Source: a virus
Reading direction: 5' to 3' (one strand)
IMG/VR virus record: IMGVR_UViG_3300042691_027344
Location: 1-30,382 of that record
Length of the DNA stretch: 30,382 bases
Both the position numbers and the translations under genes were made by a program. Positions 13,280 through 30,382 of the stretch are shown here, one piece after another (positions within the stretch are counted from its first letter, which is position 1; every line of letters begins with the position of its first letter). The notes beneath the pieces were generated by a model that saw only the letters and a program-made list of their open reading frames with translations, was not told the origin of the DNA and made no database searches.

Positions 13280-13308
13280 AGCTTTATTTTTTTTTGTATA
13301 TTCGTACT

Positions 13309-13340
13309 CAAAGTATGTTCCATTTAAAAAAAGTAGACAA
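13309..13340 (-). promoter_or_regulatory. Host-type promoter candidate for hsp20
   Basis: On the minus strand, TTG (13338-13340), a 21-nt spacer, then ATACTTTG (13309-13316), which resembles the Bacteroidota -33 TTG and -7 TAnnTTTG boxes with the TA pair swapped. Confidence 0.4.
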
Positions 13341-13378
13341 TATGACAGTTATATTATTATAACAACTGAAAAATTGTC
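13336..13378. promoter_or_regulatory. Dyad between hsp20 and clp genes
   Basis: Two nested inverted arms share one centre near 13357: GACAAT (13336-13341) with ATTGTC (13373-13378), and CAGTT (13346-13350) with AACTG (13364-13368). The outer arms contain the TTG of the leftward and rightward promoter candidates, so a protein bound here could control both genes. Confidence 0.45.
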
Positions 13379-13405
13379 ACCTACTTGTTTTTTAAATGAA
13401 TTTTG
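13374..13405 (+). promoter_or_regulatory. Host-type promoter candidate for the clp gene
   Basis: TTG (13374-13376), a 21-nt spacer, then GAATTTTG (13398-13405), one mismatch from TAnnTTTG. If used, transcription would start after the ATG at 13396, and translation would begin at the second ATG (13435). Confidence 0.3.
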
Positions 13406-16304: not shown

Positions 16305-17386
16305 TTGAAATTTTAGAAAAATATCACAAAGATGGTTTGTTGATGAAACAAACTCACCCAACCAAAGATTTGTACATATGGAATTATACACCGAGAGTAC
16401 AGTACGAATCGTTGTGGGATGATATTACTATGCAATGCCGTGGTCTTATTACAACTCATTCAGGAGAAGTAATATCAAAACCATTCGGTAAGTTTTTTAA
16501 TTACGAAGAAGTCATCGACAAAAATCTAATTCCTTGGGATAGTGAGTATGCACACATCCAAGATAAAATGGATGGTTCTCTCGGAATTCTTTTCTTTTAC
16601 GACGGTGAATGGATTATGTCAACAAGAGGTTCTTTTACCTCAGAACAATCTATTCGTGGTTTAGAAATTCTTAAATCAAAATATGATTTAAGTAAATTCA
16701 TGAAGGAAGTTACATACCTATGTGAAATCATTTATCCAGAAAATAGGATAGTAGTGAACTATGGTTGTGATAAGATTACATTTTTATCCGTAACAACACC
16801 CATAGATGAATTGAACTGGCACACCACCCAAGCAATTTTTCATTCATCGGACATTGCGGAAGAAGATGTTGTTGAAAGTACAATGGTGACTTTTAATAAA
16901 AAAACATTTGACAGATATAAACAATTAAACACTCCGAATAGTGAAGGATTTGTTGTTCGTTTCTACCCATCAAATTTTAGAATGAAAATAAAGTTTGAAG
17001 AGTATGTTCGTTTACATAGAATTCTAACCAACGTATCAAATAGAGATGTTTGGGAATATTTGAAAGACGATAAACCATTCGATGATTTACTTGAAAAGGT
17101 ACCTGATGAATTCAATGATTGGGTAAAAGAAACTGTAAGAGATTTGGTAGTTAGATTTGAAAACATAGAAAAAGAATATCAATGGATATTCAATAAAATT
17201 CGAAATGTTTATTTTGAATCATATCAAAAAGAATTTAACCGACGTGAGTTTGCAGAGTTGGCTCAAAGATACACACACCCATCAATACTGTTTAATATGT
17301 TGGACGGTAAGTCATATAAAAGTATAATATGGAAAATTTTATATCCACCATATTCAAAACCATTCAAAAAGGATGAAGAGAATTAG
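16301..17386 (+). CDS. rnlA: RNA ligase, T4 Rnl1-like
   Basis: 361 residues (T4 Rnl1 has 374). ATP-dependent ligase joining 3'-OH and 5'-phosphate RNA ends. The nucleotidyl lysine is K89 in motif I, KMDGSLG. Upstream QCRGLI (45-50) and KPFGKFFNYEE (60-70) are typical of the Rnl1 group. LCEIIYPENRIVVNY is motif IIIa, SEGFVVRF motif IV, and MKIKFEEYVRLH motif V. T4 Rnl1 repairs tRNA-Lys cut by the host anticodon nuclease PrrC; a like role is probable, since this phage carries 14 tRNAs including Lys. Start is GTG, overlapping the kinase stop by 4 nt. Confidence 0.93.
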   Translation: MIEILEKYHKDGLLMKQTHPTKDLYIWNYTPRVQYESLWDDITMQCRGLITTHSGEVISKPFGKFFNYEEVIDKNLIPWDSEYAHIQDKMDGSLGILFFYDGEWIMSTRGSFTSEQSIRGLEILKSKYDLSKFMKEVTYLCEIIYPENRIVVNYGCDKITFLSVTTPIDELNWHTTQAIFHSSDIAEEDVVESTMVTFNKKTFDRYKQLNTPNSEGFVVRFYPSNFRMKIKFEEYVRLHRILTNVSNRDVWEYLKDDKPFDDLLEKVPDEFNDWVKETVRDLVVRFENIEKEYQWIFNKIRNVYFESYQKEFNRREFAELAQRYTHPSILFNMLDGKSYKSIIWKILYPPYSKPFKKDEEN

Positions 17387-17905: not shown

Positions 17906-18235
17906 ATGAGTTTGACAAAGACTGGCGTTGCCATAAAAAAGTTGAGTATCAAAGGAAAATACAACGAGTTTTCCGATTTCTATGATATTAACAAAGTGGT
18001 CATATACAAGAACATCCTTAAACTATTTAAGGAACTAAAAAACAAAGAAAAAGATATTCTTATCCTTACTATCTCCGCAAAAATCAAAGGTCTTGATTGG
18101 GAAACCGATTTAAGATTTCAACGTGAAGAATTGATTGTTTTGAAGAGGGACATCATGCCATACTTCGAACAAATTGAGGACTACGAAACTTGTGGTGAGA
18201 TTTGTGAGCTCTATACCAAACTCATTGAATCTTAA
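17906..18235 (+). CDS. Unknown protein (109 aa)
   Basis: Not recognised. 109 residues, Lys/Glu/Ile-rich, probably helical, with no signal peptide or membrane segment. It has its own host-type promoter candidate, so it may be expressed early, unlike the late genes around it. Its stop overlaps the stop of the convergent lectin gene, and no terminator separates the two units, so the transcripts may overlap. Confidence 0.65.
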   Translation: MSLTKTGVAIKKLSIKGKYNEFSDFYDINKVVIYKNILKLFKELKNKEKDILILTISAKIKGLDWETDLRFQREELIVLKRDIMPYFEQIEDYETCGEICELYTKLIES

Positions 18236-20544
18236 TTCGAAGAGTGAGATAAATCTACATCCCCTAACATACAGAACTTTATATTCTGAATCACACTACT
18301 TGATACAGATGTAAAACTGAATGATGTTACAGGTGAAATGCTTCCGAAGTTGTTTTTGGTTATTGAATTGTAATTAGTTTCAGTAAACCATAACACTTCG
18401 GAAATTGTTTTTAAACCTGTGATATGTGCGGCAACGAGATATGAATCCCCTAAATCTAAAATCCCATTCTTATTTACATCGGCTGCTTTCCATTGTTTGG
18501 TTCCTGTAATCACTAATCCCGAAGCGGTGTTGGTTGGGGTATTAACATTTTTTACCTCACCAAAAGATAAATCAAAATCGTTACTTGTGATTCCTTGATA
18601 AGTTAAAGAGGGGACAATTTTATAATTAGCACCATTCTCAGGAACATTAAATGAGTATGTTCCATTAGTGTTCACAGTATCTGTTTCAATCAACGTTTCG
18701 GTACTACCAACAACTTTATAAAGAGTAAGTGTTACCATCGGACTGAGTGTGTTACTTGTCGGTAATGTTACAGTACCCGATATTGTGTAAACAATTTGCA
18801 CCGTTCCATTAGATGAATATGCAAATCCACAGGTACCACTTTGTAACTGTGCTCTAAATAATGTTTTTGTATTAATGTTGGTGTAGGATTGTGATGTCGT
18901 TGTATTTGCGATATCGGTCCAAGTCACCCCATCATTAGTTGAACGTTGCCATTTTACAATAGTTCCTGTATAACCACTTAACGTCACACTTCCCGAGTTA
19001 GTGGTACTTGAAAGATTTACAGACGAAACCGAACCACCGACAGGTGGAGTACCGGAAGTAACCGTAATTGTTTTTGAATCTGAATTAACTGCAGAACCAC
19101 AGTTTGGGGTTTGTACCTGTACTCTATAATAGTATGTTCCCGCAGAACTAATCGTCTCTGTTAAACTTGTTGTCGTGTTTGATATGTCCGTCCAATTAAC
19201 GTTATCTGTTGAACGTTGCCATTTATTTACGTTACCCTGTTGACCTGATAGAGTCAACTCAACTTGACCACCCGCACAAATTGAATTATTGACCGCGAAC
19301 ACACTTCCCGATTTTGTTGGTTTTACCGATAAGAAAACGCTAGATGTCGCTAAGTTACTACAACTAGTTGGGCTTGTTGAATTTACAATTGCTCTGTAGT
19401 ATGTTGTTTTAGTTAGATTGGTAACTGTAATACTTGAAGATGTACTTGATATTGTTGTTCCCGCAGTGAAAAAGTTATCAAATGACGATTCCCATCTGAC
19501 AACCGAACCAGTATAACTGTTAAGAGTTAATGTCGTACTGTTACTTCCTGAACAAACATTTATATCCCCACCACTTATGTAACCACTTGAAGCACCACTA
19601 ACCTCAACATTTCTTGTGAGTATTGTTGTGCTTGAAGTTATATCACCCGGCATATCTCCATATTCACAAACATATCCACCTAAATTTGTGTTGGGTAAAT
19701 CATTCCACTGACCATTATTAGATGAATAGAATTGTCCATAGTGTTCACCTCCTGCATTATTTGGTTCACCACTGGCCCATTTATGATATTGACCACTAAC
19801 TAACGTAATACTTGGGGTATTCCCATTTGAAAAGTTTTGACCTTTTTCAGGACCAGTTACCCAGTGCCACTTACCTTCTACCGCCGATTGTGATGCAAAT
19901 GCGGTACTACCCTTTGCCGTATTTACTGCAGATACTTCATCGGAAGCACCAAACCACGCATCAGAGGACATTAGTTTCCAAACAAAATTATTTTCCGCCT
20001 CGGATGACATCGTTGCCAAATAACCGGCCTTACCAAAATAAGAACGATTTTCTGCCGATGTTTTTGCATTCGTCCAAGTCGTAGTTCCTGAAACATATTC
20101 ATAAAAATGTTCAGTCAATGGGTTGTAAAAAACCGTACCTGCAACAAATGTTACTCTTCTTTGTAATGCATAACAACTTGATGAGGTTGATTTAAATTCA
20201 ACACCCCTTAATATTGTTTCCCAATTCGATGCGGTGGTTGTTCCATTAAAAACTAGCACACCCGTAGTTGTGTTGAAAGATGAAACACTAATACCCGACG
20301 GTAATGTTACAGTTGACCTTAATTGGTCTCCACTTGCGCCACTTATGTAACTTTGAGAAATCTGAACTCTAAATCCGGTGATGTTACCATTCGCACTTAA
20401 TGTCACATTTGGGTCCACCTTTGTCCACGTATTGTTTGTAACAGATAAGGTACCACTACTTGATGTTCCAAGAGTGACAGATGTTGCCTGAGAGAACCCT
20501 AACACAGGTAATAATAAAAATAATATGTAAAGTAGTTTCCTCAT
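18232..20544 (-). CDS. Secreted surface protein with C-type lectin and dockerin-like modules
   Basis: 770 residues. A signal peptide (1-18) is followed by Gln. Residues about 25-135 form a beta-rich domain. Residues about 138-297 form a C-type lectin domain with the sugar-binding pair EPNN (260-263) and WND (280-282), the residues that bind calcium and mannose-type sugars in this fold. Residues about 310-585 hold three Ig-like or SprB-like repeats, each with a WQRS/WESS-type core. A CarboxypepD_reg-like beta domain follows (about 590-680), then a dockerin-like calcium loop ADVNKNGILDLGDSYL (688-703) with a second loop GDVDLSHS near the end. There is no T9SS domain. The layout is common in flavobacterial adhesins, so host origin is likely. 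It overlaps the barrel-protein gene by 4 nt. Confidence 0.85.
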   Translation of the reverse strand: MRKLLYILFLLLPVLGFSQATSVTLGTSSSGTLSVTNNTWTKVDPNVTLSANGNITGFRVQISQSYISGASGDQLRSTVTLPSGISVSSFNTTTGVLVFNGTTTASNWETILRGVEFKSTSSSCYALQRRVTFVAGTVFYNPLTEHFYEYVSGTTTWTNAKTSAENRSYFGKAGYLATMSSEAENNFVWKLMSSDAWFGASDEVSAVNTAKGSTAFASQSAVEGKWHWVTGPEKGQNFSNGNTPSITLVSGQYHKWASGEPNNAGGEHYGQFYSSNNGQWNDLPNTNLGGYVCEYGDMPGDITSSTTILTRNVEVSGASSGYISGGDINVCSGSNSTTLTLNSYTGSVVRWESSFDNFFTAGTTISSTSSSITVTNLTKTTYYRAIVNSTSPTSCSNLATSSVFLSVKPTKSGSVFAVNNSICAGGQVELTLSGQQGNVNKWQRSTDNVNWTDISNTTTSLTETISSAGTYYYRVQVQTPNCGSAVNSDSKTITVTSGTPPVGGSVSSVNLSSTTNSGSVTLSGYTGTIVKWQRSTNDGVTWTDIANTTTSQSYTNINTKTLFRAQLQSGTCGFAYSSNGTVQIVYTISGTVTLPTSNTLSPMVTLTLYKVVGSTETLIETDTVNTNGTYSFNVPENGANYKIVPSLTYQGITSNDFDLSFGEVKNVNTPTNTASGLVITGTKQWKAADVNKNGILDLGDSYLVAAHITGLKTISEVLWFTETNYNSITKNNFGSISPVTSFSFTSVSSSVIQNIKFCMLGDVDLSHSSN

Positions 20545-22217
20545 AAATTAATCTTACTACCTATTAAGAAGAAAGATAAGATTGGAATTTCAGGATTTGT
20601 ACTCAAATTTGCTTTGTAGTTCATATTCACTTTAAAACGTTTTGATATTTGATAATCAAATCCACTTCCTAAGAATCCACTAAAATATCTATCTGTTATT
20701 GTTACTTGTTCTTTAGTTGAATAAACTAAAGGTGTTGACATCACATATATCTCAGGTGACATCGTAAATTTTTTACTTACTTTGATTGGTTTAGTATAAA
20801 ATGCTGTAATTGATGGAGAATAAAATCCACTCTTATCTTGTGCAATTATTGAAACCGCACCTGATATATTAAATCCGGTTACACCATATTTTCCACCATT
20901 AAGGATACCACTGTATCCAACAAATGCAAGTATGTTACCATATGTGTAAACACCTGTAAGGTTAACATTATGGATGTATTTTAAAGTTTGTTTTTTATTA
21001 TAATTCAGTTTTGTCCATTTAGTAGAAATCGCAAACTGTCTAAGATTTGCCCATATCATAGCGGTTGCTCCGACACTTGACAAACCTGTCATAGATGATT
21101 TACTCATACTTAAATTCAGAATTGGGGTGAATGTCTTATCTAAGTTTTGTGCTGTGGTTAAATCTGAAGATATTATCATGGGATTACTATTACCACCTTT
21201 ACCTCCCGATTTACCTCCACCACCTTTACCTCCACCGGAACCACCATCTGAACCTCCACCATTATCGTTGTGAGCATCGTTATTCATTGTGGTAGTTGCG
21301 CCAACTTCTTCACCTTGTTGTTGTGAATTATTTTGATTACCACTTCCCGTAGTTCCTCCTTGTGTTCCTGTTCCACCACCCGTGGTAGAACCTCCCGTAG
21401 TTGAACCTGAGCCACCAGTGTTTCCACCCGATGAACCTGAGCCACCAGTGTTTCCACCCGATGAACCTGAACCACCAGTGTTTCCCGAACCACCGGTATT
21501 AGAACCTCCCGAGGAACCACTTCCTCCTGTTGTACTTCCACCTGATGAACCCGAACCACCTACAGGTGGCTGAGACGTTCCACTTCCCCCCTGAGGTGGG
21601 TTATTTGTATTTCCATTGTTTCCACTTTGTGTACCTGTTGAGCTTCCCTGAGACGAATTATTTCCTCCAGACGATGTAGTTGTTCCTCCTGAACTCGAGG
21701 ATTGATTTCCGTTTGAATTTCCTTGAGAAGACGAAGAACTTCCGCTATTGTTATTTGAGCCATTTGAGTTTGAATTAGAATTATTATTTCCGCTCTTCTT
21801 GTTGTTATTTCCTTGAGATGCGTTAAGATTACCACCTCCTGAAGTTGCGGAACTTTGGGCTGACGCCATTATACTACCAACCACTGATTGGACAGTATTA
21901 CTAATAATTTGAGACGTGATTTGGTTTTGAGTTACTTGTCCTTGTTGTTGTGAACATGGGTTTGTTTGACGGTATTGTGTATACACTTGATTAATCCACG
22001 CATTAAAAGCACCACTGGTCACATCTGCAGCAGTAAAATATCGACTTTGATTTAAGAAGAATATTGTGGTACCACCTTGAAGTGGTACTGTAAATAACGT
22101 AACCTCTTTTGTACACGGGTCAATAAATGTTGTAGTTGACACCTGTGCATAAGATTTTTGAGTTGTGAAGAACAAAACTCCAATGAAAATTAATAATTTA
22201 AATGTCCTCCAATTCAT
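20541..22217 (-). CDS. Secreted protein with Gly/Ser/Asn-rich region and outer-membrane-barrel-like end
   Basis: 558 residues. Signal peptide 1-24, then Gln (SYA-Q). Residues 25-125 form a small domain with two Cys. Residues about 128-345 are low complexity: Asn/Ser-rich, then Gly/Ser/Thr repeats with a 30-bp DNA repeat. Residues about 348-558 alternate polar and aromatic or hydrophobic residues in short strands ending SFFLIGSKINL, as in an outer-membrane beta barrel. It probably sits in the host outer membrane with a flexible loop or passenger. It lies between the CsgG-like gene and the lectin gene and is coupled to the latter by an ATGA overlap. I do not recognise the family. Confidence 0.75.
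   Translation of the reverse strand: MNWRTFKLLIFIGVLFFTTQKSYAQVSTTTFIDPCTKEVTLFTVPLQGGTTIFFLNQSRYFTAADVTSGAFNAWINQVYTQYRQTNPCSQQQGQVTQNQITSQIISNTVQSVVGSIMASAQSSATSGGGNLNASQGNNNKKSGNNNSNSNSNGSNNNSGSSSSSQGNSNGNQSSSSGGTTTSSGGNNSSQGSSTGTQSGNNGNTNNPPQGGSGTSQPPVGGSGSSGGSTTGGSGSSGGSNTGGSGNTGGSGSSGGNTGGSGSSGGNTGGSGSTTGGSTTGGGTGTQGGTTGSGNQNNSQQQGEEVGATTTMNNDAHNDNGGGSDGGSGGGKGGGGKSGGKGGNSNPMIISSDLTTAQNLDKTFTPILNLSMSKSSMTGLSSVGATAMIWANLRQFAISTKWTKLNYNKKQTLKYIHNVNLTGVYTYGNILAFVGYSGILNGGKYGVTGFNISGAVSIIAQDKSGFYSPSITAFYTKPIKVSKKFTMSPEIYVMSTPLVYSTKEQVTITDRYFSGFLGSGFDYQISKRFKVNMNYKANLSTNPEIPILSFFLIGSKINL
21402..21484. repeat. 30-bp tandem repeat (about 2.8 copies) in the low-complexity region
   Basis: The unit begins TGAACCTGAGCCACC on the plus strand at 21402, repeats at 21432 and partly at 21462 with one substitution. 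It encodes the GGNTGGSGSS repeat of the surface protein. In-frame gain or loss of units would change the linker length. Confidence 0.85.
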
Positions 22218-22285: not shown

Positions 22286-23059
22286 TTAATTCGGGAAAAC
22301 ACCCTTCTTAATCATTCTAAGAAGAATTCTACTACATGCAATATCTAATGATTTCTTTGTTGCGATACCAATTGTTGATTGATTAAATTTTACTTCACTT
22401 AGATTATCATCGTTCAATAAACTTAATTCCCTAACAGTTGTTGCCTCACCCAAACCACTTGCACCTATGATTGCTCCCGTTTCGGCATCGGTAAACCTAA
22501 CTTGCATACCTATACGTGTTGTAACGGTATTCTTAACTCCGTTTGCCATATTAACAGTTTCATCTTCACTAACCGAATAATCGTATAGTTCAATTGTAAC
22601 AAAATAATGTGCTAAACGTATTTTACCTCTACCATTTAAAGTATCCTGAGAAATTCCCGCTTGAGATGCTTGGAATTGTTTAACCATTCTATTCTTAATT
22701 TCTGTTTTATCTTCAGTAAAAATAAAACGATTAAGATTTTCAAGATATTCAAGTGTCATATTAGCAACACCTAAACCAACTTTCTTTTCTTTTAATTCAG
22801 GGTATAATTCATATACCTCGTCAGAAATACCAATCTTTAGAATTTGAATAGGTATTTGTGGTCCATCATAATCTAATAATGAATCGATATCAACACTTGT
22901 TTCAAATGATGCTTTGTATTGTTCTGTTTGTGTTTTACCTACAACTTGAGCGGTTGCCTTTGTTGCGAAAATAAACATAAACAAAAACCAAAGAATAATA
23001 ATACCAAGAGTGGTTAGAATCTCTTTTGTTCTTTCATTCATTTTAAACATAATTGCCAT
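22286..23059 (-). CDS. csgG-like: CsgG-like outer-membrane secretion channel subunit
   Basis: 257 residues. The N-terminal 38 residues hold a hydrophobic signal segment ending ATA-Q. The rest follows the CsgG order: GLGVANMTLEYLENLNRF with an amphipathic helix, MVKQFQASQAG, LAHYFVTIELYDYSV, the strand IGMQVRFTDAETGAIIGASG (compare the E. coli NLRVVNVSTGEVLSSV) and the final helix ATKKSLDIACSRILLRM. CsgG forms a ring-shaped outer-membrane pore that exports curli subunits. E. coli CsgG is a lipoprotein; this one has Gln, not Cys, after the signal peptide. No CsgA or CsgB repeat protein is seen in the window, so its cargo is open. The surface proteins beside it are candidates. Confidence 0.8.
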   Translation of the reverse strand: MAIMFKMNERTKEILTTLGIIILWFLFMFIFATKATAQVVGKTQTEQYKASFETSVDIDSLLDYDGPQIPIQILKIGISDEVYELYPELKEKKVGLGVANMTLEYLENLNRFIFTEDKTEIKNRMVKQFQASQAGISQDTLNGRGKIRLAHYFVTIELYDYSVSEDETVNMANGVKNTVTTRIGMQVRFTDAETGAIIGASGLGEATTVRELSLLNDDNLSEVKFNQSTIGIATKKSLDIACSRILLRMIKKGVFPN

Positions 23060-23064
23060 TTTAA

Positions 23065-23655
23065 TTATTCGATATCTTTAATTTTACCACACTTCAGACA
23101 TTCTTCATCGCCGTCACCATCAGCATCACCCCATACGTGCTCACATTGTCTGTGAGTGAAGTATTCGTCAATGATACCATCATTATCGAAATCTAAACCA
23201 TCCATAACACCATCACCATCCTCATCAATCTCCACACCTACTTTTGGTGTCTCAACAGTAACCGATGTTGTGGGTACTGAATTATTAATTGATGAAGTGA
23301 ATTGTTCTGGTACTATCGGTGTTGAACCCGGTTTAGGTCCGTCAGGCATGTCAGCCGTATTTGATAGTGAAATACCATCCTCTTCGTCCATTTTTTGAAC
23401 TAACATTTTATCCTTATCGGTATCACTAAACCAATAATCAATAATTTTACCATAGGAACCAATAAATGCACCAAGTAAAAGAAGTAATAACTCCTTCCAC
23501 TCCCCACCAATTTCATTTTTACCTATAATTGCTGCGAATATTCCACCCATTATTAACATAAATCCACCAAGAACAATGGCCGTAATAAACCATCTTCTTT
23601 TCATCATTGAATTTAATAACTCTTTAAATCCTGTTGGTTGTTGCATTTTTGACAT
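23065..23655 (-). CDS. Membrane protein with calcium-loop and zinc-ribbon-like tail
   Basis: 196 residues. Two membrane segments, about 21-44 (WFITAIVLGGFMLIMGGIFA) and about 54-72 (ELLLLLLGAFIGSYGKIIDY), are followed by DYWF, a pattern seen in some phage holin-like proteins. The tail has a Ser/Thr/Pro linker, then DEDGDGVMDGLDFDNDGIID, a thrombospondin-type-3 or EF-hand-like calcium loop, then CEH...CLKCG, a possible zinc site. Function unknown: a holin-like or envelope scaffold role fits. It lies between two other envelope genes in the same operon. Confidence 0.7.
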   Translation of the reverse strand: MSKMQQPTGFKELLNSMMKRRWFITAIVLGGFMLIMGGIFAAIIGKNEIGGEWKELLLLLLGAFIGSYGKIIDYWFSDTDKDKMLVQKMDEEDGISLSNTADMPDGPKPGSTPIVPEQFTSSINNSVPTTSVTVETPKVGVEIDEDGDGVMDGLDFDNDGIIDEYFTHRQCEHVWGDADGDGDEECLKCGKIKDIE

Positions 23656-23677: not shown

Positions 23678-23998
23678 TTACCATTTTGGTTCTTCTGACG
23701 CAAATTCGTCTTTTTTCTTTTCTTTTGGTTTTTCCGCCGGTTGAGATGCTGGTTTTTCAACAACACGCTCAATCACTTTGGTAGTACCACCTGATTGTTG
23801 TTGTTGAGCATTACTGTTAGTAATATTAATTACAGGAGCAGCTTGTTGTACAGGGGCTTGTTGCGGTTCTTCACCTCCACCAAAAAGTGTGGTTCCAACC
23901 CAAGTACCCGCACCTAATACAACAGTACTAATTGTACCGATAATGGTCTTTTTTAAACCAGACCATGTTCCGTCTTGTTCTTGTGTTTCTTCTGACAT
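23678..23998 (-). CDS. Single-pass membrane protein with disordered tail (106 aa)
   Basis: 106 residues. One membrane segment (about 18-40, IIGTISTVVLGAGTWVGTTLFGG), then a tail rich in Gln, Pro, Lys and Glu with APVINITNSNAQQQQ and a Lys-rich end. No signal-peptidase site or lipobox. Topology suggests a short cytoplasmic or periplasmic head and a long flexible arm, somewhat like an inner-membrane spanin, but the length and sequence are not enough to say so. It starts 4 nt after the stop of the T9SS-protein gene's neighbour region and is part of the same unit. Confidence 0.6.
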   Translation of the reverse strand: MSEETQEQDGTWSGLKKTIIGTISTVVLGAGTWVGTTLFGGGEEPQQAPVQQAAPVINITNSNAQQQQSGGTTKVIERVVEKPASQPAEKPKEKKKDEFASEEPKW

Positions 23999-24002
23999 AG
24001 TT

Positions 24003-25925
24003 TTAGACTTTTAAGAATTGTTTAGTTAATTGTTTATTATAATTATTCAGAACTAAATAATAATTTCCTCTAGTTGCTGAAGTTAAATCAATTTGTTTGT
24101 AAACAGTATTCATGTAACCTTCACCTGATACCGTACCAACTTGTTTTACCAACCTACCTTGTACATCATATATTGATGCCATCATAGTTGTGTTTACATC
24201 TGGGAATTTAACCTCTAACTCAAACCAACCTGTTGTTGGGTTGGGTCTGATGTGTGCGGTAATTTCTTCAGGTGTAACTGAACCCGGTATTGGTGCTGAC
24301 TTATATGAAATAGTTGATACGTGACTTGTAAAATCGATGTTTAAATGGTCTCCATTTTTATCCGATGCATCCATTATATTTCTCACATAAAGATTCGCCA
24401 CTACATCATTATTACCAATTGAAGAGAATTTAAGTTTAAATGGTGTTGCCGAACCAATCAAACCTTCTTTCATTTGGTTATTCATACCACCAAATCTGAT
24501 AGTACCAGCAGCTTCGTCATGTGTAACATATTGTAACCATGGACCACCGTTAAAATTAGATACGATTTCTTCAAATTTAACTTTGGTTTTATCGTACTTC
24601 ATTTCAAATTGTAAACCGTAGTTTTCGTCACCATTTGTGTTTATATTAAATGGAACCCAAACAGGTTGACCTACAGAAGCCATTGTATTAGGAATATCTA
24701 CATCCAAATCACCTTTGAAAATGGCTTTAGTCACTAATTGACCTGAAGAGTTATAAACAGGAGATGAATGAGTTCTATCTACGTCACCCAAAATAAAGTA
24801 TTTGATATCAACGTTAGTTAAGTTAGTTGTACCAATACTATCGGTAATGTAATTATATGCCGTTAAATAGTTTGGCCAATCATTCCATTGATTCACACCC
24901 ATCGCCAATGAATCAAATACATTCTTATGGAATGCGTGAATCATTGTTGTGGTATCTATCTTTTTAAGACCACTTACGTTTGCGTATATTAAATACGGGT
25001 CACCACCATCGTGTGCTCCTGATTTGTTAACATCCGCAATCAAATACGCTAATCCATTTTTTAAATAAAGTTTAGACGGGTTTTGGTTTACGTCGGTAAT
25101 TGAGTATTCGTCGTATGATTTAACCGCATCTGAGATGGTTACCGAATTATCTCTAATGGTGGTCATACTATCAGCGGGGAATCTAACTGTTAATTTATAC
25201 TTTGTATTTTTATCTACATTATTAAGAGAATAGTTTCCTCCGGTATCAACTTGTTGAGATGATACAAATTCCCCTGTGTTAAACTTAGTACAGATAACTG
25301 TAGGTCTCACACCTGAACCTGTCATAGTAGATGGTAACCATACCTTACCACTAATAACTAAGTTACCCAAAAGTTCAAGATGCATATCCTGTACGTTTAA
25401 AACGGCAACATTATCTCCAATTGAAGTACCATCAAATTTGAACATACGAGCCCAGTTAATTTCAACACTATCAGCATCGAAGTTTGATGCTACGTCATTA
25501 ATAAGGAATTTATTATGAATCAAAAATGTATCTGCGGTGATTTGAGAACCGCTTGATAATACCAAGTAATTTCTTGCCACAGTATAGTTTGTGTCAGAAA
25601 CATAGGAATATGTACTCGTACCTGAATTATATCCCGAATATTTGTTATTGGTAAAGAATTTAATAGACAATGCTGGAGTCATACTACTAACTGTCGCATC
25701 AACAGTTGTTGATACGTGAGTAAAAAGTTGTTTTCTATATTGGAAATCAACTTGGAATGTTCTAACATCGACCGATGGTGCGGCATCATACTTAAACACC
25801 ACATCCAATGTGTCACCACGTTTAATGGTTTTATAGGCAACAGGGTTACCAATACCGGGGGTTGTTTGAGCGAATGTTGCTGTCGTTAATATCAATCCAA
25901 ACAGCACAAAGATTAGTTTTTTCAT
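24003..25925 (-). CDS. Secreted protein with cohesin-like, dockerin-like and T9SS sorting domains
   Basis: 640 residues. Signal peptide 1-19, cut before Gln20. Residues about 25-190 look like a cohesin-type beta domain (KRGDTLDVVFKYD, TFQVDFQY). Residues 191-260 form a CarboxypepD_reg-like domain (ISGKVWLP). Residues 297-320 are a dockerin-like loop (ADVNKSGAHDGGDPYL) with a later GDVDRTHS (380-387). Residues about 404-540 form a second cohesin-like domain (VGQPVWVPFNINTN). Residues about 558-640 form a T9SS type A sorting domain: RPNPTTGWFELEV, SIYDVQGRLVKQ, DLTSATRGNYYLVLNN, TKQFLKV. It should cross the outer membrane through the host T9SS and be anchored at the surface or released. It overlaps the upstream 167-aa gene by 4 nt. 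Confidence 0.88.
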   Translation of the reverse strand: MKKLIFVLFGLILTTATFAQTTPGIGNPVAYKTIKRGDTLDVVFKYDAAPSVDVRTFQVDFQYRKQLFTHVSTTVDATVSSMTPALSIKFFTNNKYSGYNSGTSTYSYVSDTNYTVARNYLVLSSGSQITADTFLIHNKFLINDVASNFDADSVEINWARMFKFDGTSIGDNVAVLNVQDMHLELLGNLVISGKVWLPSTMTGSGVRPTVICTKFNTGEFVSSQQVDTGGNYSLNNVDKNTKYKLTVRFPADSMTTIRDNSVTISDAVKSYDEYSITDVNQNPSKLYLKNGLAYLIADVNKSGAHDGGDPYLIYANVSGLKKIDTTTMIHAFHKNVFDSLAMGVNQWNDWPNYLTAYNYITDSIGTTNLTNVDIKYFILGDVDRTHSSPVYNSSGQLVTKAIFKGDLDVDIPNTMASVGQPVWVPFNINTNGDENYGLQFEMKYDKTKVKFEEIVSNFNGGPWLQYVTHDEAAGTIRFGGMNNQMKEGLIGSATPFKLKFSSIGNNDVVANLYVRNIMDASDKNGDHLNIDFTSHVSTISYKSAPIPGSVTPEEITAHIRPNPTTGWFELEVKFPDVNTTMMASIYDVQGRLVKQVGTVSGEGYMNTVYKQIDLTSATRGNYYLVLNNYNKQLTKQFLKV

Positions 25926-26425
25926 AGTAGTTTATCGAGTAAGTTTATTGTTGTTTTTTTAATTGCAGAACTTGCAGATTCTTGGTTGAACTTTCCGCCT
26001 TCATCTATTATTATTGTTGATGTTGATATCTCGGATGATTTACCTTCCGCAAATTCACTTTTTATTTTTTTACCCTCTTTATTATAGAGGACACCTTTCA
26101 TTCTTATTACAGTAGTTGCTTTATCTTGGTGAAAAACCGCCACTCCCGATTTCGTTGTTACGATATCAAAGAAGATTAATTCAATATAAACTGTATAGTC
26201 AGCTTTTTCTTTAGCCCCAACCAAGATTAAACTGTCTTGCTCATTTATTATTTCTTGAGCAATGTTTCTAACTCCAAACGCTAAGTTCTTGTTACCCACC
26301 AAAGCACCAACTCTAATATTGTTGACAACGGGTTCAACGAAAATAGTGGAACCATTCTGAGCAGTTACGCTCAAGAATGGTAATAGGGTTAGTACAGCAA
26401 ATATTATGTTTCTCAATGATTTCAT
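25922..26425 (-). CDS. Second CsgG-like periplasmic or outer-membrane protein (167 aa)
   Basis: 167 residues. Signal peptide 1-22 (PFLSVTA), then Gln. The mature part repeats the order seen in the CsgG-like protein at 22286-23059 in shorter form: a strand TIFVEPVVNNIRVG, helix, ADYTVYIELIFFDIV, the strand pair VIRMKGVLYNKEGKKI, and a final helix after KFNQESASSAIKKT, similar to KFNQSTIGIATKKS in the larger protein. It lacks an insertion matching the pore-forming hairpins and may be an accessory ring or plug. The relation is inferred by eye. It is coupled to the T9SS-protein gene by an ATGA overlap. Confidence 0.65.
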   Translation of the reverse strand: MKSLRNIIFAVLTLLPFLSVTAQNGSTIFVEPVVNNIRVGALVGNKNLAFGVRNIAQEIINEQDSLILVGAKEKADYTVYIELIFFDIVTTKSGVAVFHQDKATTVIRMKGVLYNKEGKKIKSEFAEGKSSEISTSTIIIDEGGKFNQESASSAIKKTTINLLDKLL

Positions 26426-26457: not shown

Positions 26458-26721
26458 TTATTCAACAGGAGTTTCTTCTCCACCTTTTGAATTCTTGTTG
26501 TTAATCCACTTATCGACAGACGCGATACCGAAAGAACCTAACGTAATGACTAAGAATCCGTCGAAAATAAATTCATTGATTAATAATTCCTTACCCATCC
26601 AACCTGTAATAAGGTCGACGAACATGGCAATCATCATCATTGTAAAGGATAAAAAACCTACAACGGACTTCTCATTAATAGTGTTGTTATCATTGAACAA
26701 CTGACTGAAGAATTTTTTCAT
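26458..26721 (-). CDS. Small membrane protein, holin-like (87 aa)
   Basis: 87 residues with two membrane segments (about 19-40, VVGFLSFTMMMIAMFVDLITGW, and about 49-69, LINEFIFDGFLVITLGSFGIA) and a charged C-terminus with KGGEETPVE. Size and two-segment topology fit phage holins, which open the inner membrane at lysis, but no lysin gene is seen nearby. It is the first gene of the export and surface operon, 35 nt behind a TATTTATT motif. It could equally be a structural membrane partner of that system. Confidence 0.65.
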   Translation of the reverse strand: MKKFFSQLFNDNNTINEKSVVGFLSFTMMMIAMFVDLITGWMGKELLINEFIFDGFLVITLGSFGIASVDKWINNKNSKGGEETPVE

Positions 26722-27044: not shown

Positions 27045-27117
27045 GGGCTGTTGGTATAGTTGGCTAACACACGACATTTGCACTGTCGAATCCCCGGTTC
27101 GAATCCGGGACGGTCCA
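27045..27117 (+). tRNA. tRNA-Ala (TGC)
   Basis: Full cloverleaf. Anticodon stem CGACA/TGTCG with loop TTTGCAC gives TGC. The acceptor has G3 opposite T70, the alanine identity pair. CCA is not encoded. It begins 7 nt behind the terminator T-run. Confidence 0.93.
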
Positions 27118-27122
27118 CAAAG

Positions 27123-27140
27123 TGTTCTTTGACATATTGG
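27123..27140 (+). promoter_or_regulatory. boxA-like element 1
   Basis: TGTTCTTTGACATA between tRNA-Ala and tRNA-Phe. It resembles the rRNA antitermination boxA (E. coli TGCTCTTTAACA) and the leader found before Bacteroidota 16S genes. Confidence 0.55.
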
Positions 27141-27148
27141 TTTTTTTT

Positions 27149-27221
27149 GGTACCGTAGCTCAGTTGGTAGAGCACCAGACTGAAAATCTGGGTGTCACCG
27201 GTTCAAATCCGGTCGGTACCA
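27149..27221 (+). tRNA. tRNA-Phe (GAA)
   Basis: Acceptor GGTACCG with CGGTACC, anticodon stem CCAGA/TCTGG, loop CTGAAAA gives GAA. Discriminator A. CCA not encoded. Confidence 0.95.
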
Positions 27222-27226
27222 CATTT

Positions 27227-27300
27227 GTCCTCGTAGCTCAGTTGGTTAGAGCACCTCACTTTTAATGAGGGAGTCATGCGTTCGAGTCGCATCGGGGACA
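27227..27300 (+). tRNA. tRNA-Lys (TTT)
   Basis: Acceptor GTCCTCG with CGGGGAC, anticodon stem CCTCA/TGAGG, loop CTTTTAA gives TTT. tRNA-Lys is the classic target of the PrrC anticodon nuclease, relevant to the RNA-repair genes upstream. CCA not encoded. Confidence 0.95.
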
Positions 27301-27442
27301 CAAAGGTTGATTGGGGAATGATTACATCTATATCTCGAGAGTGAATATTGGATGATGTAGTCGGAGTTTGCAGATATTCACCTGAAGTAATGCCAATCAT
27401 AAAAGGGGTTGTCCACGGAACCATCCTCCCCTTTCCTTTCAC
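27301..27442 (+). ncRNA. Structured RNA between tRNA-Lys and tRNA-Val
   Basis: 142 nt without a gene but rich in pairing: a closing stem 27308-27314/27393-27399 (7 bp); ATTACATC 27321-27328 with GATGTAGT 27354-27361 (8 bp, one G-U); GTGAATAT 27341-27348 with ATATTCAC 27374-27381 (8 bp), which crosses the previous stem as a pseudoknot; then a hairpin AAAGGGG 27402-27408/CCCCTTT 27428-27434. T4 also has stable non-tRNA RNAs in its tRNA cluster. Function unknown. Confidence 0.5.
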
Positions 27443-27515
27443 AGTTCCTTAGCTCAGTTGGTAGAGCACTTGTCTTACATACAAGCTGTCACTGGTTCGA
27501 TTCCGGTAGGAACTA
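27443..27515 (+). tRNA. tRNA-Val (TAC)
   Basis: Acceptor AGTTCCT with AGGAACT, anticodon stem CTTGT/ACAAG, loop CTTACAT gives TAC. Discriminator A. CCA not encoded. Confidence 0.94.
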
Positions 27516-27518
27516 CAA

Positions 27519-27576
27519 TGATGGTTAAATCGTGCATTAAGTAAAAAATGGGGTTTAATGCATGAAATAACCATCA
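27519..27576 (+). other. Long double-stem hairpin between tRNA-Val and tRNA-Trp
   Basis: Outer stem TGATGGTTA (27519-27527) with TAACCATCA (27568-27576), 9 bp, and inner stem TGCATTAA (27533-27540) with TTAATGCA (27555-27562), 8 bp. It fills almost the whole spacer and may guide tRNA processing. Confidence 0.6.
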
Positions 27577-27579
27577 AAT

Positions 27580-27650
27580 ACGGGTATGGTGAAATGGTAT
27601 CATGATGGTCTCCAAAACCACAGTTCCGAGTTCGAATCTTGGTACCCGTG
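27580..27650 (+). tRNA. tRNA-Trp (CCA)
   Basis: Start chosen at A27580 so that position 8 is T and the discriminator is G, both normal for Trp. Acceptor ACGGGTA with TACCCGT, loop CTCCAAA gives anticodon CCA. The lowest anticodon-stem pair is A-C. The 3' CCA is not encoded. Confidence 0.9.
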
Positions 27651-27653
27651 CAA

Positions 27654-27701
27654 TATTATACCAAGAGGTATAATACCGAGCAGTAATATTTCGACGGTAT
27701 T
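27654..27701 (+). promoter_or_regulatory. Two mutually exclusive hairpins in the leader of the 142-aa gene
   Basis: TATTATACC (27654-27662) pairs with GGTATAATA (27667-27675), 9 bp. AATACCG (27672-27678) pairs with CGGTATT (27695-27701), 7 bp. They share 27672-27675, so only one can form at a time. Confidence 0.35.
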
Positions 27702-27759
27702 GTGTAAAAACAATCGAGTTTATTACCTATCGGGAATACAAAATTTTAAAACAAATAAT

Positions 27760-28188
27760 ATGGAAAGAAATGACAGCTTCGACGCAATCAAAATGAAATT
27801 TGAAGCGGAGAAAATGAAGATTAAAGAAGAAAGGGAAAGGGTAATTAAACGGTATTGGGAAAATTTACCAAAGATTAATAATCCCGAAGATGTCCCAACT
27901 CTTCCAAGAGCGGATGAAAAAGAATGGAGAGAGTTCTATGTACCAAAACTAATTGAAGCCGGAGCAATTCCTAAGAGGGATTTAGTTCATGGTCAAATTT
28001 ATATTGGTGAACATAGAAACACAACCATCGCAAGATGGAATCAAGAAACAAACAAATTTGTACACATGAGATATAAGTTTGGTTGGAGAGAAGATGATTG
28101 TAACCATTTTGAAGATGATGATGGATTTGCATTGTTCGTTCCAATTAGATTGGGAACCCAAGAAGAATGGGATGAACGAATTAAGTAA
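27760..28188 (+). CDS. Unknown protein within the tRNA cluster (142 aa)
   Basis: 142 residues from the ATG at 27760. An in-frame reading from 27586 would begin inside tRNA-Trp and is rejected. Not recognised. The N-terminal 40 residues are a charged helix (KMKFEAEKMKIKEERERV). The rest has a compact, Trp- and Phe-rich pattern: LIEAGAIPKRDLVHGQIYIGE, FVHMRYKFGWREDD, DDDGFALFVPI. No signal peptide. It ends 1 nt before tRNA-Arg, so it is co-transcribed with the tRNAs. The leader has two alternative hairpins. Confidence 0.75.
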   Translation: MERNDSFDAIKMKFEAEKMKIKEERERVIKRYWENLPKINNPEDVPTLPRADEKEWREFYVPKLIEAGAIPKRDLVHGQIYIGEHRNTTIARWNQETNKFVHMRYKFGWREDDCNHFEDDDGFALFVPIRLGTQEEWDERIK

Positions 28189-28189
28189 T

Positions 28190-28261
28190 GGTTCTTTGGT
28201 GTAATGGATAGCACGCAACGCTACGGACGTTGAAGTATGGGTTCGAGTCCTTTAGGAACCA
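28190..28261 (+). tRNA. tRNA-Arg (ACG)
   Basis: Acceptor GGTTCTT with AGGAACC, anticodon stem CAACG/CGTTG, loop CTACGGA gives ACG. Discriminator A is followed by an encoded CCA (28262-28264), one of two such cases here. The T-stem has one T-T mismatch. Confidence 0.9.
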
Positions 28262-28265
28262 CCAC

Positions 28266-28339
28266 GGTCCTGTACCCAAGTGGTTTAAGGGGGGAGTCTG
28301 CAAAACTCTTATTCGGTGGTTCGAATCCACTCGGGACCT
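28266..28339 (+). tRNA. tRNA-Cys (GCA)
   Basis: Acceptor GGTCCTG with CGGGACC, loop CTGCAAA gives GCA. The discriminator is T (U73), the cysteine identity base. CCA not encoded. Confidence 0.92.
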
Positions 28340-28342
28340 CAC

Positions 28343-28391
28343 TATAAGGCACAGACCTAATAATTGACCATTATTAGGTTATAACCTTATA
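28343..28391 (+). other. Nested hairpin between tRNA-Cys and tRNA-His
   Basis: Outer stem TATAAGG (28343-28349) with CCTTATA (28385-28391), 7 bp. Inner stem ACCTAATAAT (28355-28364) with ATTATTAGGT (28370-28379), 10 bp. No T-run follows, so it is not a terminator. Confidence 0.6.
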
Positions 28392-28395
28392 ATAT

Positions 28396-28470
28396 GGTGG
28401 ATATAGTTCAGTTGGTTAGAACGTCTGATTGTGGTTCAGAAGGTCGTGGGTTCGAATCCCATTATTCACC
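28396..28470 (+). tRNA. tRNA-His (GTG)
   Basis: An extra G at -1 (28396) faces C73 (28470), the histidine identity pair. Acceptor GTGGATA with TATTCAC, loop TTGTGGT gives GTG. Confidence 0.93.
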
Positions 28471-28505
28471 CATCCGATGTGTTTACCGAGCTAGGTCGGT
28501 TATAT

Positions 28506-28579
28506 TGGAATATAGCTCAGTTGGTTAGAGCATTCGTCTGATACGCGAAGGGTCGGTGGTTCGAGTCCACCTATTCCAA
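28506..28579 (+). tRNA. tRNA-Ile (GAT)
   Basis: Acceptor TGGAATA with TATTCCA, anticodon stem TTCGT/GCGAA, loop CTGATAC gives GAT. Discriminator A. A short ACCGA/TCGGT hairpin lies in the spacer just before it. Confidence 0.92.
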
Positions 28580-28586
28580 CAAACAT

Positions 28587-28660
28587 TGCGGGGTGGTCTG
28601 GAGAGGTTCCAGCTCGGTCTCATAAGCCGAATCACGTGGGTTCGATTCCCACCCCCGCAA
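28587..28660 (+). tRNA. tRNA-Met or tRNA-Ile2 (CAT)
   Basis: Acceptor TGCGGGG with CCCCGCA, anticodon stem TCGGT/GCCGA, loop CTCATAA gives CAT. The first pair is T-A and the anticodon stem lacks three G-C pairs, so it is not a typical initiator. Elongator Met and lysidine-modified Ile2 cannot be told apart here. Confidence 0.9.
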
Positions 28661-28698
28661 CATTTTGAAATGTGGAATTTATTTCTTATATTTTAAAT

Positions 28699-28716
28699 AG
28701 TTCTTTGACTTAATGG
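28699..28716 (+). promoter_or_regulatory. boxA-like element 2
   Basis: AGTTCTTTGACTTAATGG, a close copy of element 1, in the spacer before tRNA-Thr. Confidence 0.5.
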
Positions 28717-28727
28717 AAAAGAAATAC

Positions 28728-28801
28728 GCCTCCTTAGCTCAGTTGGCCAGAGCAGCTGATTTGTAATCAGCGGGTCGGCGGTTCGAATCCGTCAGGAGGC
28801 T
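28728..28801 (+). tRNA. tRNA-Thr (TGT)
   Basis: Acceptor GCCTCCT with AGGAGGC, anticodon stem GCTGA/TCAGC, loop TTTGTAA gives TGT. Discriminator T, followed by an encoded CCA (28802-28804). Confidence 0.94.
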
Positions 28802-28807
28802 CCAATT

Positions 28808-28879
28808 GGTCCTGTAGTTAATCGGCTATAACGCCGCCCTGTCACGGCGGTATGCCGGGTTCGATTCCCGGTGGGACCG
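28808..28879 (+). tRNA. tRNA-Asp (GTC)
   Basis: Acceptor GGTCCTG with TGGGACC, anticodon stem CCGCC/GGCGG, loop CTGTCAC gives GTC. Discriminator G, as expected for Asp. Confidence 0.94.
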
Positions 28880-28881
28880 CA

Positions 28882-28971
28882 ATGAGTAAGAGATACTCAG
28901 AGTCTTTGGTTCAAGACTTAAACAATGAACTCGCAGAATGTCTACGGCGTGAGTGGGACATCGTTGGGTAA
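28882..28971 (+). CDS. Possible micro-ORF in the tRNA spacer (29 aa)
   Basis: 29 codons, MSKRYSESLVQDLNNELAEC then a basic and acidic end. The sequence looks like an amphipathic helix. A 7-bp hairpin (28972-28978/28984-28990) follows the stop at once. The spacer 28880-29088 otherwise holds a second hairpin (29030-29035/29046-29051) and nothing I recognise. It could instead be non-coding RNA. Confidence 0.3.
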   Translation: MSKRYSESLVQDLNNELAECLRREWDIVG

Positions 28972-29088
28972 AGGGATTCACACAATCCCTCCAAGTAGTG
29001 TTGGATGTTTTTAACGGGTAAGACCATCAGGTTTTTAAGAAATAGAAAACCGATATATCTACTTATCGTAATCTCAGATAGGGAAATT

Positions 29089-29174
29089 GGAAGGATGGCA
29101 GAGTTGGTCTATCGCATCGGTCTTGAAAACCGAAGTACTGAAAGGTACCGTGGGTTCGAATCCTACTCCTTCCG
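29089..29174 (+). tRNA. tRNA-Ser (TGA)
   Basis: 86 nt with the long variable arm of serine tRNAs (GTACTGAAAGGTAC hairpin). Acceptor GGAAGGA with TCCTTCC, loop CTTGAAA gives TGA. Discriminator G. Confidence 0.94.
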
Positions 29175-29175
29175 C

Positions 29176-29189
29176 AAACGATTGTTGTT
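29176..29189 (+). repeat. Left arm of a 14-bp inverted repeat around the 112-aa gene
   Basis: AAACGATTGTTGTT, perfect inverted match to 29574-29587. It starts 2 nt after tRNA-Ser and overlaps boxA-like element 3. Confidence 0.6.
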
Positions 29190-29203
29190 CTTTGACATAC
29201 TAA
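29186..29203 (+). promoter_or_regulatory. boxA-like element 3
   Basis: TGTTCTTTGACATACTAA, identical to element 1 over TGTTCTTTGACATA, between tRNA-Ser and the 112-aa gene. Confidence 0.55.
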
Positions 29204-29218
29204 ATAAAAATTAAAAAT

Positions 29219-29557
29219 ATGGATACAATATCATTTATTTTAGGAATGTCCTCGGTGGTGGTTATCGCAATTGCGGTGGTTGCTGTCATGGGATTTTTTA
29301 AGGTCAGAAATGTTGCGAAACAATTCAATAATTACAAACAAAACTTTACAGTTGAGTTTGATAATAGAACAAAAGATATTCACGATAATATAAATCATGT
29401 AAATGATGAATTACATCGTAGAATTGATAACACAGAAAGAGAAATCTTTTCCCAATTAGATTCTCGATTAGATAAATTGGAAAACAAATTAACAGACACG
29501 ATTAAAAATGGTTGTGACCCTGTTAAAGATTCAATAAACATCGGCCGTAAGGCATAA
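29219..29557 (+). CDS. Membrane-anchored coiled-coil protein (112 aa)
   Basis: 112 residues. One membrane segment (about 5-27, SFILGMSSVVVIAIAVVAVMGFF), then a long charged coiled coil (about 30-95) with Asn-rich heptads such as IHDNINHVNDELHRRIDNTE. It has no cleavage site, so it is probably an inner-membrane protein with the coil in the cytoplasm. Proteins of this shape occur in other T4-like phages without a known role. It lies between tRNA-Ser and tRNA-Glu, has boxA-like element 3 before it, and is bracketed by a 14-bp inverted repeat. Confidence 0.75.
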   Translation: MDTISFILGMSSVVVIAIAVVAVMGFFKVRNVAKQFNNYKQNFTVEFDNRTKDIHDNINHVNDELHRRIDNTEREIFSQLDSRLDKLENKLTDTIKNGCDPVKDSINIGRKA

Positions 29558-29573
29558 TAAATAAATCGTCAAA

Positions 29574-29587
29574 AACAACAATCGTTT
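29574..29587 (-). repeat. Right arm of the 14-bp inverted repeat
   Basis: AACAACAATCGTTT, reverse complement of 29176-29189, running into a T-run before tRNA-Glu. Confidence 0.6.
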
Positions 29588-29592
29588 TTTTA

Positions 29593-29666
29593 GCTCCTGT
29601 CGTCTAATTGGTTAGGACATCCCCCTTTCACGGGGAAGCTTGCGGGTTCGAGTCCCGTCGGGAGTA
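29593..29666 (+). tRNA. tRNA-Glu (TTC)
   Basis: Acceptor GCTCCTG with CGGGAGT (first pair G-T), anticodon stem TCCCC/GGGGA, loop CTTTCAC gives TTC. Discriminator A. Confidence 0.9.
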
Positions 29667-29684
29667 CAACTTATAAAGTATAGA

Positions 29685-30382
29685 ATGAAAGTATTAGTTA
29701 CCGGAGGTAATGGATTTATTGGTTCAAATCTAATAAGGAAATTACTTAGTGAAGGACACGAGGTGTTCTCCCTTGATGATTTATCTACCGGTTCAAAAAA
29801 TCATGAAATTAATGGTTGTCATTATTCATATGGCGACATAGAACAACTACTTACTTGGAGAAATGATAACTTCAATGTTTGTTTTCATTTGGCGGCACTC
29901 AGTAGAGTTCAACCATCATTTGAAAATCCACATGAAACATTTAGAGTAAATGTGGGTGGGACACAAGTTGTTTGTGAATGGGCAAGAAAGAATAACGTAA
30001 AAGTTGTTTATGCTGGTTCCGCATCAAAATGGGGAAACTACTTTGAATCTCCATACGCAACATCAAAGAAACTCGGTGAGGATATTATCAAAATGTACCG
30101 AACAGTTTATGAATGTGATTTCGAAATTGCCAGATTCTATAATGTATATGGACCCAATGAAGTTGTTAACGACAAGTGGGGCGCATTAATTGGAATATGG
30201 AGATATCAAATGGAAAAGAATCTACCATTAACAATTGTTGGTGATGGAGAACAAACAAGAGATTTCACTCACGTTTTCGATATCGTTGATGGATTAATTA
30301 AAATAGCATTTAGTGATGAAAAACATGAAGATGCTTGGGAACTCGGAACAGGTAAACCATACTCAGTTAATGATGTATTCGA
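29685..30382 (+). CDS. NAD-dependent sugar-nucleotide epimerase/dehydratase (3' end outside window)
   Basis: The first 232 codons are visible. Extended short-chain dehydrogenase of the UDP-glucose 4-epimerase type. NAD-binding VTGGNGFIGSN (5-15), LDDLSTGS after the second strand, HLAALSRVQPS, an AGSASKWG active-site Ser region, then SPYATSKKLGED with the catalytic Tyr and Lys, RFYNVYGPNE, and GDGEQTRDFTHVFD. Such enzymes reshape nucleotide sugars and could feed glycosylation of phage DNA, of virion proteins, or of host surface sugars. The exact substrate cannot be read. It starts 18 nt after tRNA-Glu without a Shine-Dalgarno sequence. Confidence 0.92.
   Translation, partial: MKVLVTGGNGFIGSNLIRKLLSEGHEVFSLDDLSTGSKNHEINGCHYSYGDIEQLLTWRNDNFNVCFHLAALSRVQPSFENPHETFRVNVGGTQVVCEWARKNNVKVVYAGSASKWGNYFESPYATSKKLGEDIIKMYRTVYECDFEIARFYNVYGPNEVVNDKWGALIGIWRYQMEKNLPLTIVGDGEQTRDFTHVFDIVDGLIKIAFSDEKHEDAWELGTGKPYSVNDVF

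Follow-up and report, generated by a model that had tools for sequence, protein, structure and literature searches.

The stretch of DNA analysed (hereafter, the window) spans positions 1 to 30,382 of the IMG/VR virus record IMGVR_UViG_3300042691_027344, 30,382 nucleotides in full. The record is a fragment of a T4-like phage and carries genes for a T4-like portal (3.5e-76), terminase, major head protein (2.4e-37), head protease and an RnlA-like RNA ligase. The gene under study, here termed the scaffold gene, occupies positions 24003 to 25925 on the minus strand and encodes 640 amino acids, with exactly the coordinates given in a first-pass annotation of the same DNA, which named no strand. That annotation had placed a type IX secretion system (T9SS) sorting domain in a phage protein, and the T4-like structural genes sharing the record with the ORF confirm the viral setting. 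Contamination, or a passenger gene, was rejected on the strength of these same structural genes, about 300 viral relatives and the kept gene order. The scaffold gene and its parts were delimited as follows.

24003..25925, minus strand: scaffold protein, with signal peptide, N-terminal beta domain, dockerin-like module, cohesin and T9SS type A sorting domain
25866..25925, minus strand: signal peptide, residues about 1-20 (MKKLIFVLFGLILTTATFAQ), from sequence reading and a hydrophobic core
25371..25862, minus strand: N-terminal beta domain, residues about 22-185, from the AlphaFold model
24759..25358, minus strand: carboxypeptidase-regulatory-like and dockerin-like module, residues about 190-389, from homology to the C-terminus of a neighbouring lectin
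24297..24713, minus strand: predicted cohesin domain, residues about 405-543, from VIA and Foldseek on the predicted structure
24006..24254, minus strand: T9SS type A sorting domain, residues about 558-640, from PF18962 and TIGR04183 above cut-offs; all-beta in the model

Relatives of the scaffold protein were found by profile search on about 300 IMG/VR contigs, with close relatives (67-80% identity) on 15. The only annotated phages matching in the phage collection were the Flavobacterium phages vB_FspM_immuto (hereafter immuto), whose host is Flavobacterium sp. LMO8. The immuto protein gp015 matched the cohesin model at 36.7 bits and the sorting-domain models at 34.6 (Pfam) and 44.8 bits (TIGR04183), all above cut-offs, and as a query it returned 27 IMG/VR loci, the immuto genome itself among them.

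The type A pattern that had been read in residues 558-640 is present in full in the ORF (NPTTG, IYDVQGRLVKQ, DLTSATRGNYYLVL and KQFLKV). The searches that the first-pass annotation had proposed were run with both model collections and returned PF18962 at 34.2 bits (cut-off 27) over scaffold residues 561-637 and TIGR04183 at 29.4 bits (cut-off 23) over residues 560-639 of 640. Six-frame translation of the entire record yielded no sorting-domain match other than the scaffold protein. An HMM of the relatives, with the window left out, scored the window tail at 130.8 bits, compared with at most 9.6 bits for 2000 shuffles, and residues 556-639 are all-beta in the AlphaFold model. Among 50 related phage records, comprising 49 IMG/VR contigs (up to 321 kb) and immuto and picked via the CsgG-like neighbour described below, PF18962 matched 39, of which 35 pass the cut-off. 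Values of dN/dS across the sorting domain ran from about 0.07 to 0.45, i.e. below 0.5 in 11 of 11 pairs, and are rough, with synonymous sites near saturation in several pairs; they exceed those of the rest of the scaffold protein in most pairs, yet always indicate purifying selection. Given the relatives on about 300 contigs, the purifying selection and the 44.8-bit match in immuto, the sorting-domain match is not a chance one. A related phage (IMGVR_UViG_3300021963_000050:35728-35844) has a second, weak sorting-domain match of 19.1 bits in a 1613-aa frame.

The domain had also been taken to occur only in Bacteroidota and thereby to fix the host phylum. Both statements go too far: an Ignavibacteriales genome gave 150 matches, nearly all above cut-off, and Deinobacterium chartae matched in the control. 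What stands of the original claim is a genuine type A domain at the very C-terminal end of a Sec-exported protein, conserved in a phage clade with a Flavobacterium isolate; what falls is the exclusivity to Bacteroidota. The cohesin, the dockerin-like module, CsgG, the lectin and the lipoprotein variant, all described below, had not been noticed in that annotation. By sequence, the sorting domain points to Bacteroidota or relatives and is by itself no proof of phylum. Taken together with the Flavobacterium host of immuto, it makes a host in Bacteroidota likely.

The AlphaFold model of the scaffold protein (mean pLDDT 81.6) resolves an N-terminal beta domain, a module at residues 190-389, a cohesin and a C-terminal domain. 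The predicted structure contains a cohesin fold: VIA aligned it to the type I cohesin 6kgf with Z 17.6 and an rmsd of 2.0 A over 136 residues, and Foldseek agreed. The cohesin model PF00963 scored the window protein at 18.6 bits, below its cut-off of 24.1, and matched 11 of 23 relatives at E <=0.05. Cohesins fill the match list of the whole-model VIA search, which is hardly informative on the sorting and N-terminal domains; the one two-cohesin chain that aligns across the N-terminal beta domain does so at an rmsd of 32 A, giving no support for a cohesin fold there. Residues 190-389 are homologous to the last 180 residues of the lectin protein (hhalign E 3.2e-22) and contain an EF-hand-like loop, DVNKSGAHDGGD, at residues 298-309 with D298, D306 and D309 invariant; the PDB dockerin match of this module is weak (E 0.076). 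The signal peptide was called from the sequence and its hydropathy.

The scaffold gene lies within a set of genes, here termed the cassette, whose usual order is small exported protein, scaffold, 106-aa protein, membrane protein, CsgG-like protein, barrel-like protein and lectin. This order was read in loci with long enough flanks and is constant in most, a minority being rearranged or short of members. The other genes in and beside the cassette in the window are listed here.

25922..26425, minus strand: small Sec-exported protein, 167 aa, immediately preceding the scaffold gene in most loci (signal peptide, synteny)
23678..23998, minus strand: 106-aa protein with a low-complexity C-terminus ending in a conserved W (sequence, synteny)
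23065..23655, minus strand: membrane protein, 196 aa, with a zinc-ribbon-like C-terminus (sequence, synteny, hydropathy)
22286..23059, minus strand: CsgG-family protein, 257 aa, with a signal peptide and without a lipobox (structure model, bacterial homologue)
20541..22217, minus strand: Sec-exported protein, 558 aa, with a G/S/N-rich middle and a C-terminus barrel-like by eye (sequence, synteny)
18232..20544, minus strand: C-type lectin protein of 770 aa, Sec-exported, with Ig-like repeats and, at its C-terminus, a dockerin-like module (Lectin_C in relatives)
26458..26721, minus strand: holin-like two-TM protein (two hydrophobic segments)

The lectin is classed as such by Lectin_C (PF00059), which was found in 18 of 18 of its relatives at E <=0.05 (the window protein alone scores 21.1 against a cut-off of 22.6), and by the calcium-site motifs EPN and WND, invariant among those relatives. 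Its dockerin-like module scores weakly in Pfam and departs from the canonical tandem dockerin; Dockerin_1 was matched in 6 of the 18 relatives (best E 0.0022), with one good loop and a second, atypical one. Searches of Pfam, NCBIfam and PHROG gave no meaningful match for the CsgG-like, barrel-like and small proteins, the 167-aa exported protein and the 558-aa protein each being without a Pfam family. Matches of cassette proteins to ABC transporter, Zot-like and TssN families were below cut-off and were taken as chance. The 106-aa protein shows one hydrophobic stretch by eye, and a hydropathy scan gave no segment above threshold. A CxxH...CxxC zinc-ribbon-like motif, conserved at the C-terminus of the 196-aa membrane protein, was noted by eye. 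The holin-like gene is a neighbour only, its position varying among loci, and is no constant member of the cassette. Signal peptides are present on the scaffold, lectin, CsgG-like and barrel-like proteins alike, and for this reason a reading of these products as virion components was disfavoured.

Several further features of the record were recorded. Fourteen tRNA genes lie on the plus strand at 27045-29667, beside the cassette, and a nucleotide-sugar epimerase gene lies near it at 29640-30380; a marine phage carrying csgG together with an epimerase was reported to be one of the most abundant in its data set (PMC7003362). Genes for a phage Hsp20 and a ClpB-like ATPase are adjacent and divergent at 12908-15453, and a polynucleotide kinase-like gene is followed by that of the RnlA-like RNA ligase / tail-fibre attachment protein at 15891-17386. 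At 11814-12599, a nucleotidyltransferase-like GS...SDVD motif was seen by eye in a protein belonging to a PHROG of unknown function.

Identification of the CsgG-like protein needed a structure model, as a sequence-profile search of the PDB found nothing. The best PDB matches of the model (mean pLDDT 73) were to E. coli CsgG, with E 6.3e-7 and an overall TM of about 0.4. PF03783 did not match the window protein directly; the protein is 34% identical (1e-38) to an Ignavibacteriales protein on contig L098 that passes PF03783 (28.6 against 20.8). No lipobox for the lipidated N-terminal cysteine of CsgG was found in the window protein or in the relatives inspected, and CsgA, CsgB, CsgE and CsgF had no Pfam match among the cassette proteins; the cassette was not classed as curli (type VIII). 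The CsgG-like protein has 552 relatives. In the phylum of the Ignavibacteriales genome, just 3 of 395 sampled genomes gave a match, a rarity indicating that this is essentially a phage subfamily. The single match in a scan of cellular genome contigs was an Ignavibacteriales cellular operon and no prophage. This operon (L098:9986-17422) encodes a CsgG-family lipoprotein and transglutaminase-like, CHASE2/cyclase-like and outer-membrane-like proteins, and its second small exported protein looks, by eye, like the product of window positions 25922-26425. It is a possible cellular source of the phage genes.

Immuto carries the same gene set at gp013-gp018 (NC_055915), from the lectin and cohesin genes through the CsgG-like and barrel-like ones, and has a cultured host; its public record annotates the lectin and cohesin domains only. 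It differs from the window in that the lectin gene is at the opposite end of the set and the scaffold is divided between two genes, gp014 matching scaffold residues 1-385 (hhalign E 1.7e-7) and gp015 residues 411-631 (hhalign E 1.2e-13). That the two halves are split in immuto and fused elsewhere suggests that the parts work together.

Sixty-nine loci contained a full cohesin ORF. The sorting domain was fused to it in 52, namely 46 detected by script, five of the L020 type in which the pattern had missed the tail, and immuto, with the sequences also read by eye; one locus (L065) was ended by its contig. In the remaining 16, which belong to sister lineages, the cohesin protein ends after the cohesin, and one or two separate lipoproteins of 113-124 aa are encoded between that protein and the membrane-protein genes. 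Stand-alone lipoproteins with sorting-related domains were located at the following positions.

L074:8184-8896: stand-alone lipoproteins with sorting-related domains
L084:8595-8945: the same
L089:8308-9016: the same
L095:6233-6959: the same

The lipoproteins of L084 and L082 pass TIGR04183 (24.2 and 23.6 bits), the match is weak in L074 and it is lost in others; several of the stand-alone lipoproteins are without the PxP motif. The optimal signal for lipoprotein surface export in Bacteroidota is C-X-K-(D/E)2-X (PMC5080379). It is matched by CYKDDI (L089), CFKEDL (L094) and CYKDDI (L095), and most of the lipoproteins deviate from it (CSGPEL, CQNEEL and others). As a T9SS tag and a lipoprotein, which represent unrelated surface routes, occur at the same cassette position, surface display seems to have been kept by selection. 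Among the sequence evidence for the importance of surface display, this apparent swap of routes would be the strongest.

Two loci from two metagenomes, L032 and L033 (99.8% identical), have most of the cassette deleted but retain an intact CsgG-like gene. In L032:6016-7538, as in the corresponding part of L033, the small exported gene continues into the sorting-domain tail, the two membrane-protein genes have merged in shortened form, and neither the barrel-like nor the lectin gene is left. Unless it is an assembly error, this deletion indicates that any lectin coat is dispensable in at least one lineage, and the retention of CsgG without most of the cassette indicates that CsgG may have another job.

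Phage-encoded proteins with type A T9SS sorting domains have been described in the Bacteroidetes Cryophage, for which use of the host machine was proposed (Bellas et al. 2020, PMC7468147). The Cryophage has a size of 76 kb, and what it carries as cargo varies among strains (an endoglucanase, a GH39 enzyme, a PA14 protein), whereas here a T4-like phage carries a single conserved cohesin scaffold in a fixed cassette with a lectin and CsgG. Phage CsgG is also found in marine viromes (PMC7003362), and the pelagimyophages and methylophage Melnitz (PMC7029224, PMC9004378) are likewise aquatic myophages with a CsgG-family pore protein; there CsgG is paired with CsgF and no adhesin was identified, whereas here no CsgF, CsgA or CsgB was recognised and a CsgG without lipobox stands beside a lectin, a cohesin and a sorting domain. 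With cellulosomes the cassette has in common the cohesin fold (Z 17.6) and, in a partner gene, a module resembling EF-hand dockerins. Unlike them, it has no enzymes, one cohesin, a lectin and atypical dockerin repeats, and the cohesin-dockerin pairing is a putative one. In the literature searched, which covered few subscription journals and no bioRxiv preprints, no paper on phage-encoded cohesin or dockerin was found, and none in which a sorting domain and a cohesin occur together with a dockerin-like lectin and CsgG; lectin, cohesin and type IX secretion all go unmentioned in a paper on Baltic Sea Flavobacterium phages (PMC7077304). T9SS cargo and CsgG in phages are each already known.

The explanation favoured here, held to be slightly more likely than not, is that the scaffold gene encodes the surface anchor of a phage-made lectin scaffold on the host outer membrane. 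In outline, Sec would take the scaffold protein to the periplasm by means of the signal peptide read in its sequence. The type A domain, from its identity, would then pass the protein to the host T9SS and so to the cell surface, where the host sortase would cut the tag and tether or release the protein. The scaffold cohesin is assumed to bind the dockerin-like module of the phage C-type lectin, a protein with a complete EPN/WND sugar-binding motif. The CsgG-like and other envelope proteins may together build a platform in the outer membrane, or a pore through which untagged parts, e.g. the lectin, are exported; this is the weakest step of the scheme. The infected cell would end up coated with lectin. 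The most likely benefit would be exclusion of a second phage, with glycans of the host surface or receptors displayed through T9SS being blocked or modified, followed by capture of neighbouring cells as the next best. In flavobacteria, T9SS-exported adhesins can be phage receptors, and T9SS or gliding mutations confer phage resistance (PMC13288928); superinfection exclusion is preferred on these grounds, as a coat could mask or compete for such receptors. Counting against the surface-scaffold reading, the lectin has no T9SS tag, and nor does the cohesin protein of the sister lineages. The non-canonical dockerin-like module, the lipoproteins without the optimal export signal or the PxP motif, and the retention of CsgG in L032/L033 also weigh against it. 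The generalisation that T4-like phages of Bacteroidota, as a widespread group, display their own cohesin-dockerin lectin scaffold via T9SS in some lineages and lipoprotein export in others, thereby controlling infection or sticking, is put forward tentatively, at somewhat less than even chances.

Display of the lectin might instead serve to make infected cells sticky, holding siblings or other prey near the burst. This reading shares its surface-display steps with the favoured explanation and differs in purpose; it has been proposed for the curli-like genes of pelagimyophages (PMC7029224), and the cassette places a candidate adhesive, a C-type lectin with invariant EPN/WND, in a CsgG neighbourhood. 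Melnitz, however, showed no clumping (PMC9004378), and capture as the main purpose is considered unlikely, if the nearest of the rivals. Slightly less probable again is that the sorting-like domain has ceased to act as a T9SS signal and now has a structural or docking role in a CsgG-like envelope complex in the periplasm or at the inner leaflet of the outer membrane. The stand-alone lipoprotein versions in 16 loci need no T9SS, some of the lipoproteins have lost the PxP motif and the cassette partners are without T9SS tags, all of which would fit such a role. Set against this, the domain is held at the extreme C-terminus with its motifs kept in 52 loci (up to 44.8 bits), an intact type A domain on a Sec-exported protein would be expected to be recognised in a T9SS-positive host, and three lipoprotein sequences have the surface-export signal.

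The cassette could also be lysis machinery, the CsgG-like pore and trans-envelope proteins depolarising or disrupting the envelope late in infection. CsgG was proposed as a gated pore for lysis timing in Melnitz (PMC9004378), and a holin-like gene adjoins the cassette in the window, but that gene is inconstant in position, the immuto endolysin lies about 6 kb from the cassette, most of the cassette is lost in L032/L033, and the lectin, cohesin and sorting domain would be left unexplained; such a role is judged improbable. Type A domains are plentiful in genomes of this superphylum, as would suit a host surface protein acquired by chance and functionless in the phage. The about 300 viral relatives with kept gene order under purifying selection, and the rarity of the CsgG-like partner in cellular genomes (3 of 395), make this the least credible of the readings and very improbable indeed.

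What CsgG-like genes do in abundant aquatic phages is still a question (PMC7029224, PMC9004378), and here a gene of that kind is accompanied by a putative adhesive, a putative anchor and a secretion tag that can be recognised. As immuto and Flavobacterium sp. LMO8 provide the whole set in a phage with a cultured host, superinfection exclusion, capture and lysis can all be put to the test. If the lectin-scaffold reading is true, viruses would make interchangeable use of T9SS and of surface export by lipoproteins, and the cassette would represent a viral cell-surface display system of a previously undescribed kind.
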